NCBI GenBank assembly: GCA_948468385.1
Contig: CAOKHZ010000004.1
Location: forward strand, 1 to 64,000
Origin: an uncultured Faecalicatena sp.
GTDB lineage: Bacteria; Bacillota; Clostridia; Lachnospirales; Lachnospiraceae
Direction of reading: 5' to 3'
Length of the DNA stretch: 64,000 bases
Shown here: piece by piece, positions 10,532 through 14,235 of the stretch
Layout: each line of letters starts with the position of its first letter
How positions within the stretch are numbered: the first letter of the stretch is position 1
Translations under genes and position numbers: made by a program
The notes under the pieces: generated by a model
The model's database searches: none
The model's input: the letters and a program-made list of their open reading frames with translations, nothing else
What the model was told of the DNA's origin: nothing

Positions 10532-10836
10532 CGCCCCTTTCCCCCTTTCCGCTGGCTTCCATCCCAGCCCATCTTCTTTCCGCACCAGTGGCAGTGCGTG
10601 TGGTTGTATTGAACCCTCTTTCCGCATTTCGGGCAGAGCCATACGTTATTTCTCCTGACCGGCCTGTCCTCATAGCAAAAAGTTGTCATCATATCGCTGT
10701 ACTGCTCCGCAAGGTCATGGTAATCCTGCAACGTACTTTCCAGCTCCTCTGCCGCATTCTCCTGCAGCCTTTCCTTGGTCACACCAAACTTTACCAGCAC
10801 CTCGCTGATCCGCAGTTCCCATTGTCCTGCTGCCAT
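10519..10836 (-). CDS. Small phage protein with helical N-terminus and zinc ribbon
   Basis: The 105-residue protein has a helical N-terminal half (ISEVLVKFGVTKERLQENAAEELESTL). A double-CxxC zinc ribbon follows, CPKCGKRV then CHWCGKKM (residues about 69-88), and the tail is basic (QRKGGKGRCRR). It probably binds nucleic acid. Its start ATG overlaps the stop of the upstream helicase-fragment gene (TAATG), and its end overlaps the dcm start by 13 bp, so it is tightly coupled to both. A similar ribbon-plus-basic-tail layout occurs in small phage regulators, but I cannot name a family. Confidence 0.65.
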   Translation of the reverse strand: MAAGQWELRISEVLVKFGVTKERLQENAAEELESTLQDYHDLAEQYSDMMTTFCYEDRPVRRNNVWLCPKCGKRVQYNHTHCHWCGKKMGWDGSQRKGGKGRCRR

Positions 10837-11207
10837 TAATTCCCCACCCCCTGTCTCGGAGGTTCTACCATACCGAATACCATAAGGGCCATATTTGCCG
10901 CCCTCGTCTGGTGTGCGTAAAGGTTCGGCTTTACCGGGTACTCCACCATCGGCTTAAGCTCCCCTGCCGGACGTGTGCGCTCCCGATCCACCGCTTCCTG
11001 AATATATGCCAGCCTCTCCATCTCTTTTTTCGCCGCAGGGATTAAGCCGCCATTATGGTACAGCTTATCCAGAAGCTGGAGGGAGATCCGGCCATACCAC
11101 CAGCCTTTCTGCTTGTCCTTGGACATCATCTTCCACGTCTTTATGACAGCCTCCTCTTCCCTGCTTGCCTTGACGAATATGTATCCGCCGTCTACCTTCA
11201 TCATCAT
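10836..11207 (-). CDS. N-terminal fragment of split SNF2 helicase (Q-motif region)
   Basis: This 123-residue protein begins MMMKVDGGYIFVKAS and ends with PVKPNLYAHQTRAANMAL followed by MVFGMVEPPRQGVGN. The LYAHQ..AANMAL segment looks like the Q-type motif found just upstream of the Walker A motif in phage SNF2 helicases. The helicase at 5912-7276 lacks exactly this part. I infer that one ancestral helicase gene is now two genes separated by zinc-ribbon, dcm, exonuclease and sigma-like genes. Whether the two polypeptides reassemble is unknown. An independent small helicase-like cofactor is the alternative. Confidence 0.6.
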   Translation of the reverse strand: MMMKVDGGYIFVKASREEEAVIKTWKMMSKDKQKGWWYGRISLQLLDKLYHNGGLIPAAKKEMERLAYIQEAVDRERTRPAGELKPMVEYPVKPNLYAHQTRAANMALMVFGMVEPPRQGVGN

Positions 11208-11903: not shown

Positions 11904-11947
11904 ACACCACCTTCACTTTCACTTCTCCCTGCATTCATGCCACCTCC

Positions 11948-12133
11948 TTATTTCAGGTATTTTTCTATCTTTTCAAATGCAATTACCATCTGCCGACTGC
12001 CATAAGTAAGGCTCAGGGTCTTTCCGTGCCTATCATTCGTGATTATTGCTATCCCTTGGACGGTTCTTGGTCCCATTGCAGTATCAATGAGCATTTCTAC
12101 TGGCACTCGCTTATTTACAATCTCTTTTTTCAT
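11948..12133 (-). CDS. Small phage protein of unknown function
   Basis: A 61-residue protein starts at ATG 12133, five bases after a GGAGG site; the longer frame from 12148 lacks this signal. The sequence (MKKEIVNKRVPVEMLIDTAM and onward) is a mix of short strands ending in a basic helix FEKIEKYLK. No cysteine pairs, signal or membrane segment are visible. It is the first gene after the structured gene-free stretch at 12160-12562. I do not recognise it; small DNA- or protein-binding early phage factors commonly look like this. Confidence 0.6.
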   Translation of the reverse strand: MKKEIVNKRVPVEMLIDTAMGPRTVQGIAIITNDRHGKTLSLTYGSRQMVIAFEKIEKYLK

Positions 12134-12159
12134 GTCTGCCTCCAACAAATCTTAATTCT

Positions 12160-12562
12160 GCAGTTGCCATCCCGGCAGGGTACTTTTATGCTTTCTAGGC
12201 TTCTTGGGTCCCGGAGTTTTGAGAGAGTTCTCCACGCTGTGGAAGAGAACCCTTTCTAAGCGTATGCTCCCTGAGTATTCTTTGGGGTAGCCCTTATGCC
12301 CTGCCCTGTTGAGTGCGGATCGCTCCGCCACCAGATTCCTACTGCCGCCGCAGGTCCCGGCGCATCTGGTGTCTCACACCCTGCGAATCGCCTCCGAACC
12401 GAGATTTTTTTACGTGGGTCTGCCGTTCTCCACCCCACTTACGACACTTCCTGAACAGGGACAGTCCATGCCGGGCGGACTTATTGCATCGGCTCCGCCA
12501 GACCAGCGTTTTTATACGAGGACGCTGCTCCCCTCGGCATTTCCTATTCAGTTTTTAAACTG
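12160..12562 (-). ncRNA. Candidate large structured RNA in the phage early operon
   Basis: About 400 bases separate two small genes with no credible reading frame, yet the leftward transcript can form many helices. Paired plus-strand intervals are 12559-12564/12460-12465, 12535-12540/12468-12473, 12522-12527/12504-12509 and 12494-12499/12474-12479, which nest as a multibranched domain. A loop at 12517-12521 can pair with 12532-12536 as a pseudoknot. Further helices are 12364-12371/12329-12336 and 12227-12232/12245-12250. A 5-bp stem at 12315-12328 closes a GCGA (GNRA) tetraloop only on the minus strand, which supports that strand. An alternative hairpin at 12368-12380 competes with one helix. 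The block GGGCATAAGGGCTACCCC reminds me of HEARO/omega RNA, but this is from memory and unverified. Confidence 0.6.
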
Positions 12563-12563
12563 T

Positions 12564-12740
12564 CTAATTTTCTATAAGCTGTTTTTCCTTTCGCTGGGAA
12601 TCCAGCTGCTTTTGAAGTTTCATTCCCTCCAGCACCGCATAAGCAATCCTCTGTTCTTCCTCGCTAAGTAAACGAAAACCGAATAAAAGCGCACATCCTT
12701 CTTTCTGATAATTTTCTGTTTTTTGATTTTTTATTGACAT
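12564..12740 (-). CDS. Small phage early protein
   Basis: A 58-residue protein starts at ATG 12740 after GGGAGGTGTAAGC; upstream in-frame starts fall in the promoter. It begins MSIKNQKTENYQKEGCALLF and contains LLSEEEQRIAYAVLEGMKLQK, an amphipathic helix, with a basic tail. It is the first gene expressed from the leftward promoter of the repressor switch, the position of cro or an antirepressor. It lacks an obvious HTH, so the role is open. Confidence 0.65.
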   Translation of the reverse strand: MSIKNQKTENYQKEGCALLFGFRLLSEEEQRIAYAVLEGMKLQKQLDSQRKEKQLIEN

Positions 12741-12762
12741 GCTTACACCTCCCTTTGCGAAT

Positions 12763-12791
12763 ATATTAACTCGCATTGTGAGTTTTGTCAA
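12763..12791 (-). promoter_or_regulatory. Leftward early phage promoter with operator in the spacer
   Basis: On the minus strand, TTGACA (plus 12786-12791) and TAATAT (12763-12768) are separated by 17 bp. The spacer contains the operator ACTCGCATTGTGAGT (12769-12783), so a bound repressor would block polymerase. It drives the early operon starting at 12740. Confidence 0.8.
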
Positions 12792-12810
12792 CGTGAAAAT
12801 TATATAAATA

Positions 12811-12859: not shown

Positions 12860-13489
12860 ATGGATAAGGAAAAAATAGGAGAAAGAATAAAGTTTGTCAG
12901 AAAAGAGCTTGGTTTGACGCAAGATGAATTCGGTTCCGAAATCGGTGTCAAAGGGAATACAGTGACTGGATATGAAAGAGGGAGCAGAAATCCCTCCGAT
13001 TCTGTCATTAATATGATTTGTCTTGTTTTTGAAGTTAATCAAACCTGGCTACGCACTGGGGAAGGTGATGATGTATTCATACATAAATCCCCAAAACTAG
13101 GCTCGCTTAATGAACTTTATTCAGATTTTGATTGCAATGCTCTCGAAAGAAGCTTTCTGGATTCCTATTTCAATTTAAAAAAACGGGAACGATATGCATT
13201 TTGTGCAATGCTCAAGAAAATGTTTCCTGCTTTATCAGAAGTAATTGGTTCAGATCCACTTGTTCCGACATGGCAAGATTCGGAAAAAACGGAAAAACAA
13301 TCCGTTCAAATCGACATTGCTGAACTTCTGCAAAAACCTGTGTCAGAAATGACAGATGCCGAGGTTCAGGCATTAAAAGAAGAAATTGATCGTGAAATTG
13401 ATGAAGAAAAAGAAGCGGCGGAAAAATCATCGGATTCCTCTACCGCTACTGGAAAAGGAAATGTAAAAAAGGAAAGTGAGGCGAGTTAA
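12860..13489 (+). CDS. Xre-family phage repressor
   Basis: The 209-residue protein has an N-terminal Cro/CI-type HTH: MDKEKIGERIKFVRKELGLT, QDEFGSEIGVKGNTVTGYERG, NPSDSVINMICLVFEVNQTWLRTGEG. The middle is a helical linker and the tail is Glu/Lys/Ser-rich. The start is ATG 12860 following AAAGGAGG. No LexA-like Ser-Lys peptidase motif is evident in the C-terminal part, so induction may not be by self-cleavage. It almost certainly binds the two inverted operators in the adjacent divergent promoters and maintains lysogeny. Its stop overlaps the next start (TAATG). Confidence 0.9.
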   Translation: MDKEKIGERIKFVRKELGLTQDEFGSEIGVKGNTVTGYERGSRNPSDSVINMICLVFEVNQTWLRTGEGDDVFIHKSPKLGSLNELYSDFDCNALERSFLDSYFNLKKRERYAFCAMLKKMFPALSEVIGSDPLVPTWQDSEKTEKQSVQIDIAELLQKPVSEMTDAEVQALKEEIDREIDEEKEAAEKSSDSSTATGKGNVKKESEAS

Positions 13490-14235
13490 TGGGATTATTG
13501 AAAAGTTTGATAAATGCATTTTCTTCACAGCAACAAGTTCCTATATCGGAAGAATCAGAAGATTTAAGATACTGGAAAGATCCGAGTACTGATCCTGTGA
13601 TGAAGTCTAATGAAGAACGGATGCGATATCACGACAATTTGAATTACATGGTTTTTCATGGAAGTGGCATTTTTTCCAAAACCGGGAAAAGGAGAACTAT
13701 AAAGCCATTTGACGCTTTTTCATACGATGAAGCAATTGCCGCTCTCGTGGAGAAAGGGTTCGTTGCTAATTCCATACAGATTGAACGATGCTGCCCTGAA
13801 CCTCCGACTGAGGCACAGCTTACTTCTATGCGAGACCATGATGATTATATTCCTTCTGATATATGCAAACATGATGCCAGCTGTATCATTAGCAGATATA
13901 TAGATCGGGATGATTTTGCAGGGAAAGCATTGCTAGATTTTGCTACAAAGCAAAAAATACCTACATCATACTACATAGGCAAAGAAGCTCTTATGTCATA
14001 CTTATGGAGAACTTTAGAAAACGAACGCCGAATTGCGCTGTATATGCTATGTGTGAAAAAGAAAGAATCTGGTAGATGGGAATTTGGTAATTTTGAAAAA
14101 TATGCGTCTGAAGCCATACGGCTACTGAAAAATGAAACTTTTATGAATTCCTTTAAACGTATCTGCGAGATTGTTGACCCAGAAGATATCAGCAGAAAGA
14201 CAAACTGCTATAAGATGGTTTTGGCATTAATATAA
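13489..14235 (+). CDS. Unknown lysogeny-module protein
   Basis: The 248-residue protein is co-translated with the repressor (TAATG overlap). A central block, PPTEAQLTSMRDHDDYIPSD followed by HDASCIISRYI, resembles a short motif (T..Q...L....P.D....EAS.LI) repeated in various phage and mobile-element proteins, whose role is not clear to me. The rest is helical with many charged residues and no membrane segment. Low G+C relative to the phage operon suggests a different origin or rapid evolution. It may be an immunity or superinfection-exclusion factor given the lysogenic location, but nothing in the sequence proves it. Confidence 0.6.
   Translation: MGLLKSLINAFSSQQQVPISEESEDLRYWKDPSTDPVMKSNEERMRYHDNLNYMVFHGSGIFSKTGKRRTIKPFDAFSYDEAIAALVEKGFVANSIQIERCCPEPPTEAQLTSMRDHDDYIPSDICKHDASCIISRYIDRDDFAGKALLDFATKQKIPTSYYIGKEALMSYLWRTLENERRIALYMLCVKKKESGRWEFGNFEKYASEAIRLLKNETFMNSFKRICEIVDPEDISRKTNCYKMVLALI

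Follow-up and report, generated by a model that had tools for sequence, protein, structure and literature searches.

The locus and its homologues

The window, that is, the whole stretch of 64,000 nucleotides that we analyzed, comes from an uncultured Faecalicatena sp., a gut bacterium, and holds, in a prophage, a gap of about 400 bases flanked by two small ORFs on the minus strand (12564-12743 and 11948-12133). The features in and around this gap are the following:

12860..13489, plus strand: CI-like HTH repressor, divergent from the RNA (family search)
12763..12791, minus strand: predicted early promoter, TTGACA-17-TAATAT, 10/12 (promoter scan)
12564..12743, minus strand: ORF for a hypothetical 58-aa protein, at the head of the early operon; its stop lies 9 nt upstream of the RNA
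12186..12554, minus strand: core of the RNA, 369 nt in length and with its 5' end at 12554 (block conserved among 10 sequences, plus covariation)
12545..12554, minus strand: 5' start of the RNA, AAACUGAAUA (Tn916 canT has these letters near its own start)
11948..12133, minus strand: next ORF, for a hypothetical 61-aa protein; a different gene stands at this place in the listed homologues (by eye)

The early operon of the window runs on one strand, leftward to about 275, and comprises ~12 kb of same-strand genes. Family searches identified a methyltransferase, a DnaQ-type exonuclease and a helicase among them, and an SSB and a primase-like gene were called by eye plus a weak match. Another early, hypothetical protein of 123 aa (10836-11207, minus strand) has look-alikes, judged by eye, downstream of the RNA in L004, L012, L016, L030 and L033. 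On the opposite side the repressor is followed by a 248-aa protein (13489-14235, plus strand) with no PHROGs, Pfam or PADLOC match at the thresholds used.

Through the 58-aa neighbor protein we reached a viral contig (L004), in which the same RNA block stands between other genes, and a near-copy of the window in a Lachnospiraceae genome record (L008). Patterns derived from the block led to the viral contigs L012, L016, L030, L033, L034, L038 and L042. The records L031, L032 and L035 are identical to L030 in this stretch, and four near-copies of L042 found later (L097, L098, L106 and L113) stay outside all counts, except for L097 in one P1/P2 shuffle test. The ten family sequences compared are 368-383 nt long; any two of them share 53-99% identity, and identity with the window is 58-98%. 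Distant blastn gave no match in 50,697 phage records (queries from the window, L004, L016, L033 and L020) nor in 72,556 plasmid records (window and L004), and the 61-aa neighbor protein used as bait brought no further homologues. DNA searches of 299 genomes of the bacterial family and a pattern search of 397 genomes found the own genome only; among 12 genomes of the genus the DNA search found the own genome and two short chance matches (23 and 18 nt). Searches of the open-access literature brought up no description of this RNA family; an unnamed mention is possible in subscription papers or supplementary alignments (e.g. those of the 2021 survey of human-microbiome RNAs, PMC8040213).

In nine of the ten family sequences the RNA starts at the stop of a short ORF or within 20 nt of it and is oriented like the early genes (in this count the RNA of L030 overlaps the ORF by 2 nt, and the upstream ORF of L034 is not listed). 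In L004 this short ORF is the fourth of the operon. All seven loci whose gene order was inspected (window, L004, L012, L016, L030, L033 and L034) have a divergent gene for a repressor-like HTH protein, with family-search support in the window only. Promoter-like sites precede the first ORF in three of the four loci scanned (window, L011, which is the L004 contig, and L030); upstream of the first ORF of L016 the scan found no site. None of these four loci has a coding-strand terminator adjoining the RNA, and no promoter or terminator of the RNA's own was detected in the main-family loci scanned. Judged by its position, the RNA is part of the early message.

A structured RNA with two pseudoknots

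The helices of the RNA, all on the minus strand, are listed here from the 5' end:

12505..12536: 5' H-type pseudoknot P1/P2 (hand alignment and shuffle tests)
12532-12536/12517-12521: P1, 97% paired (hand alignment)
12522-12526/12505-12509: P2, 88% paired (hand alignment)
12390..12504: P3-P6 module, basis of the covariance model R1
12475..12498: P3 (12494-12498/12475-12479), loop GCCGAUGCAAUAAG; 100% paired, 4/5 pairs with double-sided changes (MAFFT)
12442..12473: P4 (12468-12473/12442-12447), which encloses P5; 100% paired, 2/6 pairs with double-sided changes (MAFFT)
12462-12464/12451-12453: P5 hairpin (hand alignment)
12414..12438: P6 (12434-12438/12414-12418); 100% paired, 4/5 pairs with double-sided changes (MAFFT)
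12329..12385: second pseudoknot, P7 (12380-12385/12349-12354) crossing P8 (12366-12371/12329-12334) (hand alignment)
12359-12361/12344-12346: P9, within the region of the second pseudoknot (hand alignment)
12315..12328: P10 hairpin, with a GCGA loop in the window; 93% paired, 4/5 pairs with double-sided changes (hand alignment)
12223..12254: P12 hairpin near the 3' end; 95% paired, 7/8 pairs with double-sided changes (hand alignment)

Two alignments were used. In the hand alignment of eight of the ten rows (L034 was excluded as a near-copy of L033, and L012 because the placement of P10 failed), 11 helices with 57 pairs were 97% paired and 44 pairs had changed on both sides; its helix sites were chosen by eye in each sequence, with a bias toward pairing. 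The other, A2, was built by MAFFT without structure from 10 sequences, 9 of them distinct, and for this reason the fairer of the two counts is its own, which covers P3, P4 and P6 only. Their 16 pairs were paired in 144 of 144 cells (100%), and slid controls reached at most 43%. Changes on both sides affected 10 of the 16 pairs, a number reached by none of 500 shuffles. Folding energy was unremarkable (z of -1.06 for the minus strand and -1.35 for the plus strand), so that the RNA is not shown by folding energy alone and the evidence for it is the covariation. Protein coding was rejected, since across all ten sequences no frame stays open along the stretch. A conserved structured RNA of a new family on the early-operon strand is near certain, and this family, large and double-pseudoknotted, is well supported.

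In the hand alignment 9 of the 10 pairs of P1 and P2 had changed on both sides; P2 is unpaired in L012 and has only three pairs in L030 and L038. A blind search for P1/P2 was scored against dinucleotide shuffles, and its score was reached by at most 5 of 100 shuffles in 6/10 family stretches, 5/8 relatives (see below) and 1/24 other pattern hits (L012 entered the family count at two offsets, and L033 and L034 were not hit by the patterns). The single passing hit among the others was L051, itself a relative. The bare P1/P2 rule admitted 16 of these 24 other hits and only the shuffle score separates them. In a test of 19 rows P1/P2 passed at 5% in 13, L056 included, and failed in L012, L030, L038, L053, L055 and L057, all of them with zero score save L057. 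The second pseudoknot, P7/P8, was the top pick in 8/9 family rows and also, with other letters, in L051 and L052, which were not used to derive it. Per sequence its signal is weak: between 2 and 41 of 200 shuffles reach the score in the eight family rows, 102/200 in L051 and 80/200 in L052.

A previous sequence-only reading of this DNA had proposed a large multi-helix RNA on the leftward strand of a phage early operon, in a gap of about 400 bases lacking a plausible reading frame between small genes. Covariation and gene setting bear this out, and no long frame is common to the homologues. Its 8-bp helix 12364-12371/12329-12336 is real and corresponds to P8, whose six core pairs had all changed on both sides in the hand alignment, and where it suspected one pseudoknot there are two, P1/P2 and P7/P8. 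Of its GCGA hairpin at 12315-12328 (P10) the stem is kept and the loop is not, being GCAA, GUAA, AACA or longer elsewhere. Two other elements were not sustained. The letters of the window do contain the closing helix 12559-12564/12460-12465, but its 5' arm falls outside the conserved block, in the DNA before the start, which apart from L008 is unlike in the homologues, and the competing hairpin at 12368-12380 is absent, by eye, in five of the ten sequences (L012, L030, L033, L034 and L042).

Relatives and known RNA families

The covariance model R1 covers the 117-nt P3-P6 module, without the upstream pseudoknot. On 344 genomes of the order it gave eight matches at E<=0.1, one of them the own genome. 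The matches were convincing in five genomes of other Clostridia outside the model (L051-L055, with 91, 81, 58, 36 and 31 bits). Those of L056 (20.1 bits) and L057 (19.2 bits) were dropped as doubtful, though L056 passes the P1/P2 shuffle test (2/200). On 299 genomes of the phylum R1 found the own genome only. At loci picked by pattern it gave 31.3 bits in L039, 22.9-30.7 bits in a ten-member group that we call the L020 group (L017, L019, L020, L022, L023 and L025-L029) and 18.7 bits in L018, scores that by themselves are no evidence at pattern-picked loci. Actually, the coding stretches L108, L115 and L117, picked by a similar pattern, reached up to 22.1 bits, and for this reason L018 and the lower rows of the L020 group rest on the pseudoknot test.

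The remainder of the RNAs of L018, L039 and the L020 group differs, by eye, from the main family. With the module and the 5' pseudoknot in common and the remainder different, we read the pattern as a single 5' module recurring in a number of large RNAs. Members of the L020 group have, at L020:1840-2400 and in the corresponding region of the others, another conserved large RNA with this 5' module, adjoining the integrase-HTH-small ORF unit of isolate prophages; scans of L020 and L027 found no Rfam match for it. Further RNAs with the 5' pseudoknot and the GCCGAUGC loop, and with different sequence otherwise, lie at L018:1402-1517 and L039:807-920. Integrase-, HTH- and lysin-like genes were recognized by eye in the L020 group, and from the proteins we read its hosts as probable lactobacilli and the prophages as Lactobacillus-type. 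No operon follows in L019, L022, L023 and L025, where the genes beyond the RNA are convergent with it; a same-strand ORF lies downstream in L028 (104 aa) and in L039 (365 aa).

No known RNA family was recognized at the locus. Rfam 15, which the sequence-only reading had proposed as a check, gave no match at gathering thresholds over the whole 64-kb window, and a scan of 11940-12800 to E=10 gave four chance-level matches only. The ROOL model (RF03087) matched 0 of 12 records at E<=10, in a search in which the controls were silent too; the same ROOL search recovered, as a positive control, a true ROOL (L058, 358 bits) in one of 120 related genomes, on whose locus R1 gave noise-level scores only. 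GOLLD and HEARO/omega RNA, whose models are presumably present in the Rfam library, gave no match at E<=10 in all-Rfam scans, run without a positive control, of stretches of the window, L004, L020 and L030. On these scans the identities of ROOL, GOLLD and HEARO/omega RNA were rejected. Among the scanned window proteins there is no IscB-, TnpB- or Cas-type nuclease; a phage DnaQ-type exonuclease is present. The resemblance to GOLLD and ROOL that had been suggested is fair as an analogy, these RNAs being likewise phage-encoded, large and pseudoknotted, but is not accompanied by a ROOL match. Besides, ROOL often lies near tRNA islands, according to PMC12286853, whereas this RNA lies in an early operon. 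What stands of the earlier suggestions is that of a new class.

Possible functions

Antiterminator RNAs of conjugative elements offer the closest comparison. According to PMC11658703, canT of Tn916 is an RNA antiterminator that acts in cis and processively and is orientation-specific; a 452-nt piece from the interval between orf8 and xis is active. A Tn916 copy on a plasmid of L. salivarius has TGTTCTTTGAAAACTGAATA at L091:1160-1179; with the paper's coordinates laid on this fetched copy the active piece starts at L091:1166, TTGAAAACTGAATA, a mapping that is supported because the essential ATA of the paper falls on an ATA at L091:1323. The letters AAAACUGAAUA, as near the canT start, are exact in the window, L008, L012, L016 and L038 and have 1-2 mismatches in the other five family sequences. 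The start AAACUGAAUA extended by one more A is exact in five of the ten, with at most two mismatches in all ten, and the same holds for AAAACTGAATA (exact at the start of 5/10 family RNAs, <=2 mismatches in the rest), the DNA before the start being unlike. The canT region at L091:1160-1179 begins with the boxA-like TCTTTGA(A/C)AACTGAATA, and so do the ICE loci L071, L081 and L083 (two of them near-copies), the three with a boxA-like start among 30 Tn916-Xis loci of relatives. We take this boxA-like start to be the boxA of ribosomal RNA operons. The accessible text of the canT paper (PMC11658703) does not mention boxA.

Both RNAs are ~400-450 nt long, follow small regulatory genes of a mobile-element operon and carry AAAACUGAAUA near the start. 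They differ in that canT has neither an R1 match nor the P3 motif, and in that the ICE copies have the full boxA-like stretch and this RNA its second half only. The full stretch (UUCUUUG) before the start is absent here (6-9/20 mismatches); by the coordinates of the paper, the active 452-nt piece of canT is also without most of it. With filters off the best R1 score on canT was 2.6 bits, there was no match on the 30 Tn916-Xis loci, and canT membership was rejected on the lack of a match to R1, which covers the P3-P6 module only. Among ten distant relatives (L018, L019, L020, L022, L039 and L051-L055) the AAACUGAAUA start is in place in L053 alone, with 2 mismatches.

Some side observations concern these starts. 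Within L091:1180-1230 the first canT hairpin loop (UACGU) could, by eye, pair with an ACG ~20 nt downstream in a possible P1/P2-like pseudoknot. A structured-looking noncoding stretch starting CTTTGAAAACTGAATA, without R1 match, lies on the minus strand of L093 from ~1500, in a genome of the window's genus, and CTTTGAAAACTGAATA also stands just before a TPP riboswitch (Rfam match) on the minus strand of L094 at ~1500.

The plasmid pLS20 has a comparable layout (its gene table is incomplete): an HTH gene on the minus strand, an ORF on the plus strand, a 383-nt unannotated gap, which we infer to be conAn2, and a long operon. This resembles our locus with its divergent repressor-like gene, ORF, RNA and long operon, but pLS20 has neither a model match nor AAACUGAAUA. 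R1 gave no match on the gap and at best 5.8 bits nearby, on the wrong strand, and conAn2 membership was rejected for lack of this match. According to PMC8955417, conAn (ConAn1 protein plus conAn2 RNA) stands at the head of the pLS20 operon. The terminator-like sites of the phage early operons were at shuffle level, with coding-strand shares of 3/11, 1/9, 1/8 and 0/9 in the four loci scanned, in which no strong terminators were found. The position of our RNA also recalls that of nutR of phage lambda, which lies after cro. HK022 put and the Bacillus EAR RNA are antiterminators that are likewise near the operon head and far smaller than this RNA, which has no Rfam match.

We tentatively favor, at a probability that we judge somewhat below even, an RNA that acts in cis to render RNA polymerase processive and works like canT. 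RNA polymerase leaving the early promoter would transcribe the short gene and then the RNA, which would fold while being made and stay with the elongation complex. With its hold on the complex perhaps aided by Nus factors of the host and by its boxA-like start AAACUGAAUA, the RNA would make this complex resistant to termination or pausing through the ~12-kb early operon, the same action as that of canT of Tn916, conAn2 of pLS20 and the put RNA of phage HK022. In a lysogen, stray transcripts starting downstream would lack the mark. The position relative to short ORF, repressor and promoter, the inconstant next gene and the analogy with canT and pLS20 argue for antitermination. The likeness to canT is put forward as a hypothesis because R1 does not match canT or conAn, the start is missing in most of the distant relatives and no strong terminators were found in the four operons scanned; the convergent genes in some relatives also speak against it.

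It is also quite possible, and the main alternative, that the RNA acts in trans, as an ornate phage RNA cut from the early message. Like ROOL and GOLLD in current proposals, it would then form an RNA-protein particle or assemble from RNA only. Its size, the two pseudoknots, the phage setting and the 5' module shared by otherwise different RNAs would fit such a role, as would the convergent genes that the RNA faces in L019, L022, L023 and L025; there is, however, no homology to ROOL, and the main family sits inside an operon with no promoter or terminator of its own detected. A decoy or inhibitor RNA directed early in infection against a host defence or regulator seems unlikely. Early expression, judged by where the RNA lies, agrees with it, and so does a conserved core surrounded by stems and loops that change fast, but neither a defence-linked partner nor a mimic was found, and PADLOC matched only the methyltransferase, helicase and primase-like proteins of the eight window proteins scanned. 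We consider quite improbable a cis regulator of the next gene, such as a leader or a translational control: in the window the start codon of that gene lies 52 nt beyond the end of the RNA, but the next gene varies between homologues (by eye), so that the RNA is not the leader of one gene. A guide-like RNA or a HEARO/omega RNA lacking its nuclease, a proposal of the sequence-only reading, can practically be dismissed: HEARO/omega RNA agrees with this RNA in size alone, the four stretches scanned gave no such Rfam match at E<=10, and there is no IscB-like gene in the neighborhood.

The RNAs described here might, more speculatively and in our opinion doubtfully, belong to a modular superfamily of mobile-element RNAs of Bacillota, in which one 5' module, composed of an H-type pseudoknot, AGGU, a hairpin whose loop is GCCGAUGC.AUAAAGU, and P4, is combined with various 3' domains. 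Among Clostridia phages it would be a giant antiterminator riding the RNA polymerase of the early operon, in Lactobacillus-type prophages a stand-alone RNA, and the boxA-derived start would tie the main family to the canT-type RNAs of conjugative elements.

Our analysis adds to the phages of gut Clostridia a well-supported large RNA family, with two pseudoknots and a usable model, and offers a concrete connection, open to testing, with the antiterminator RNAs that conjugative elements carry. Should the shared 5' module serve as a binding platform, several large phage RNAs would be reusing a single part, and this reuse would bear on what ornate phage RNAs do.
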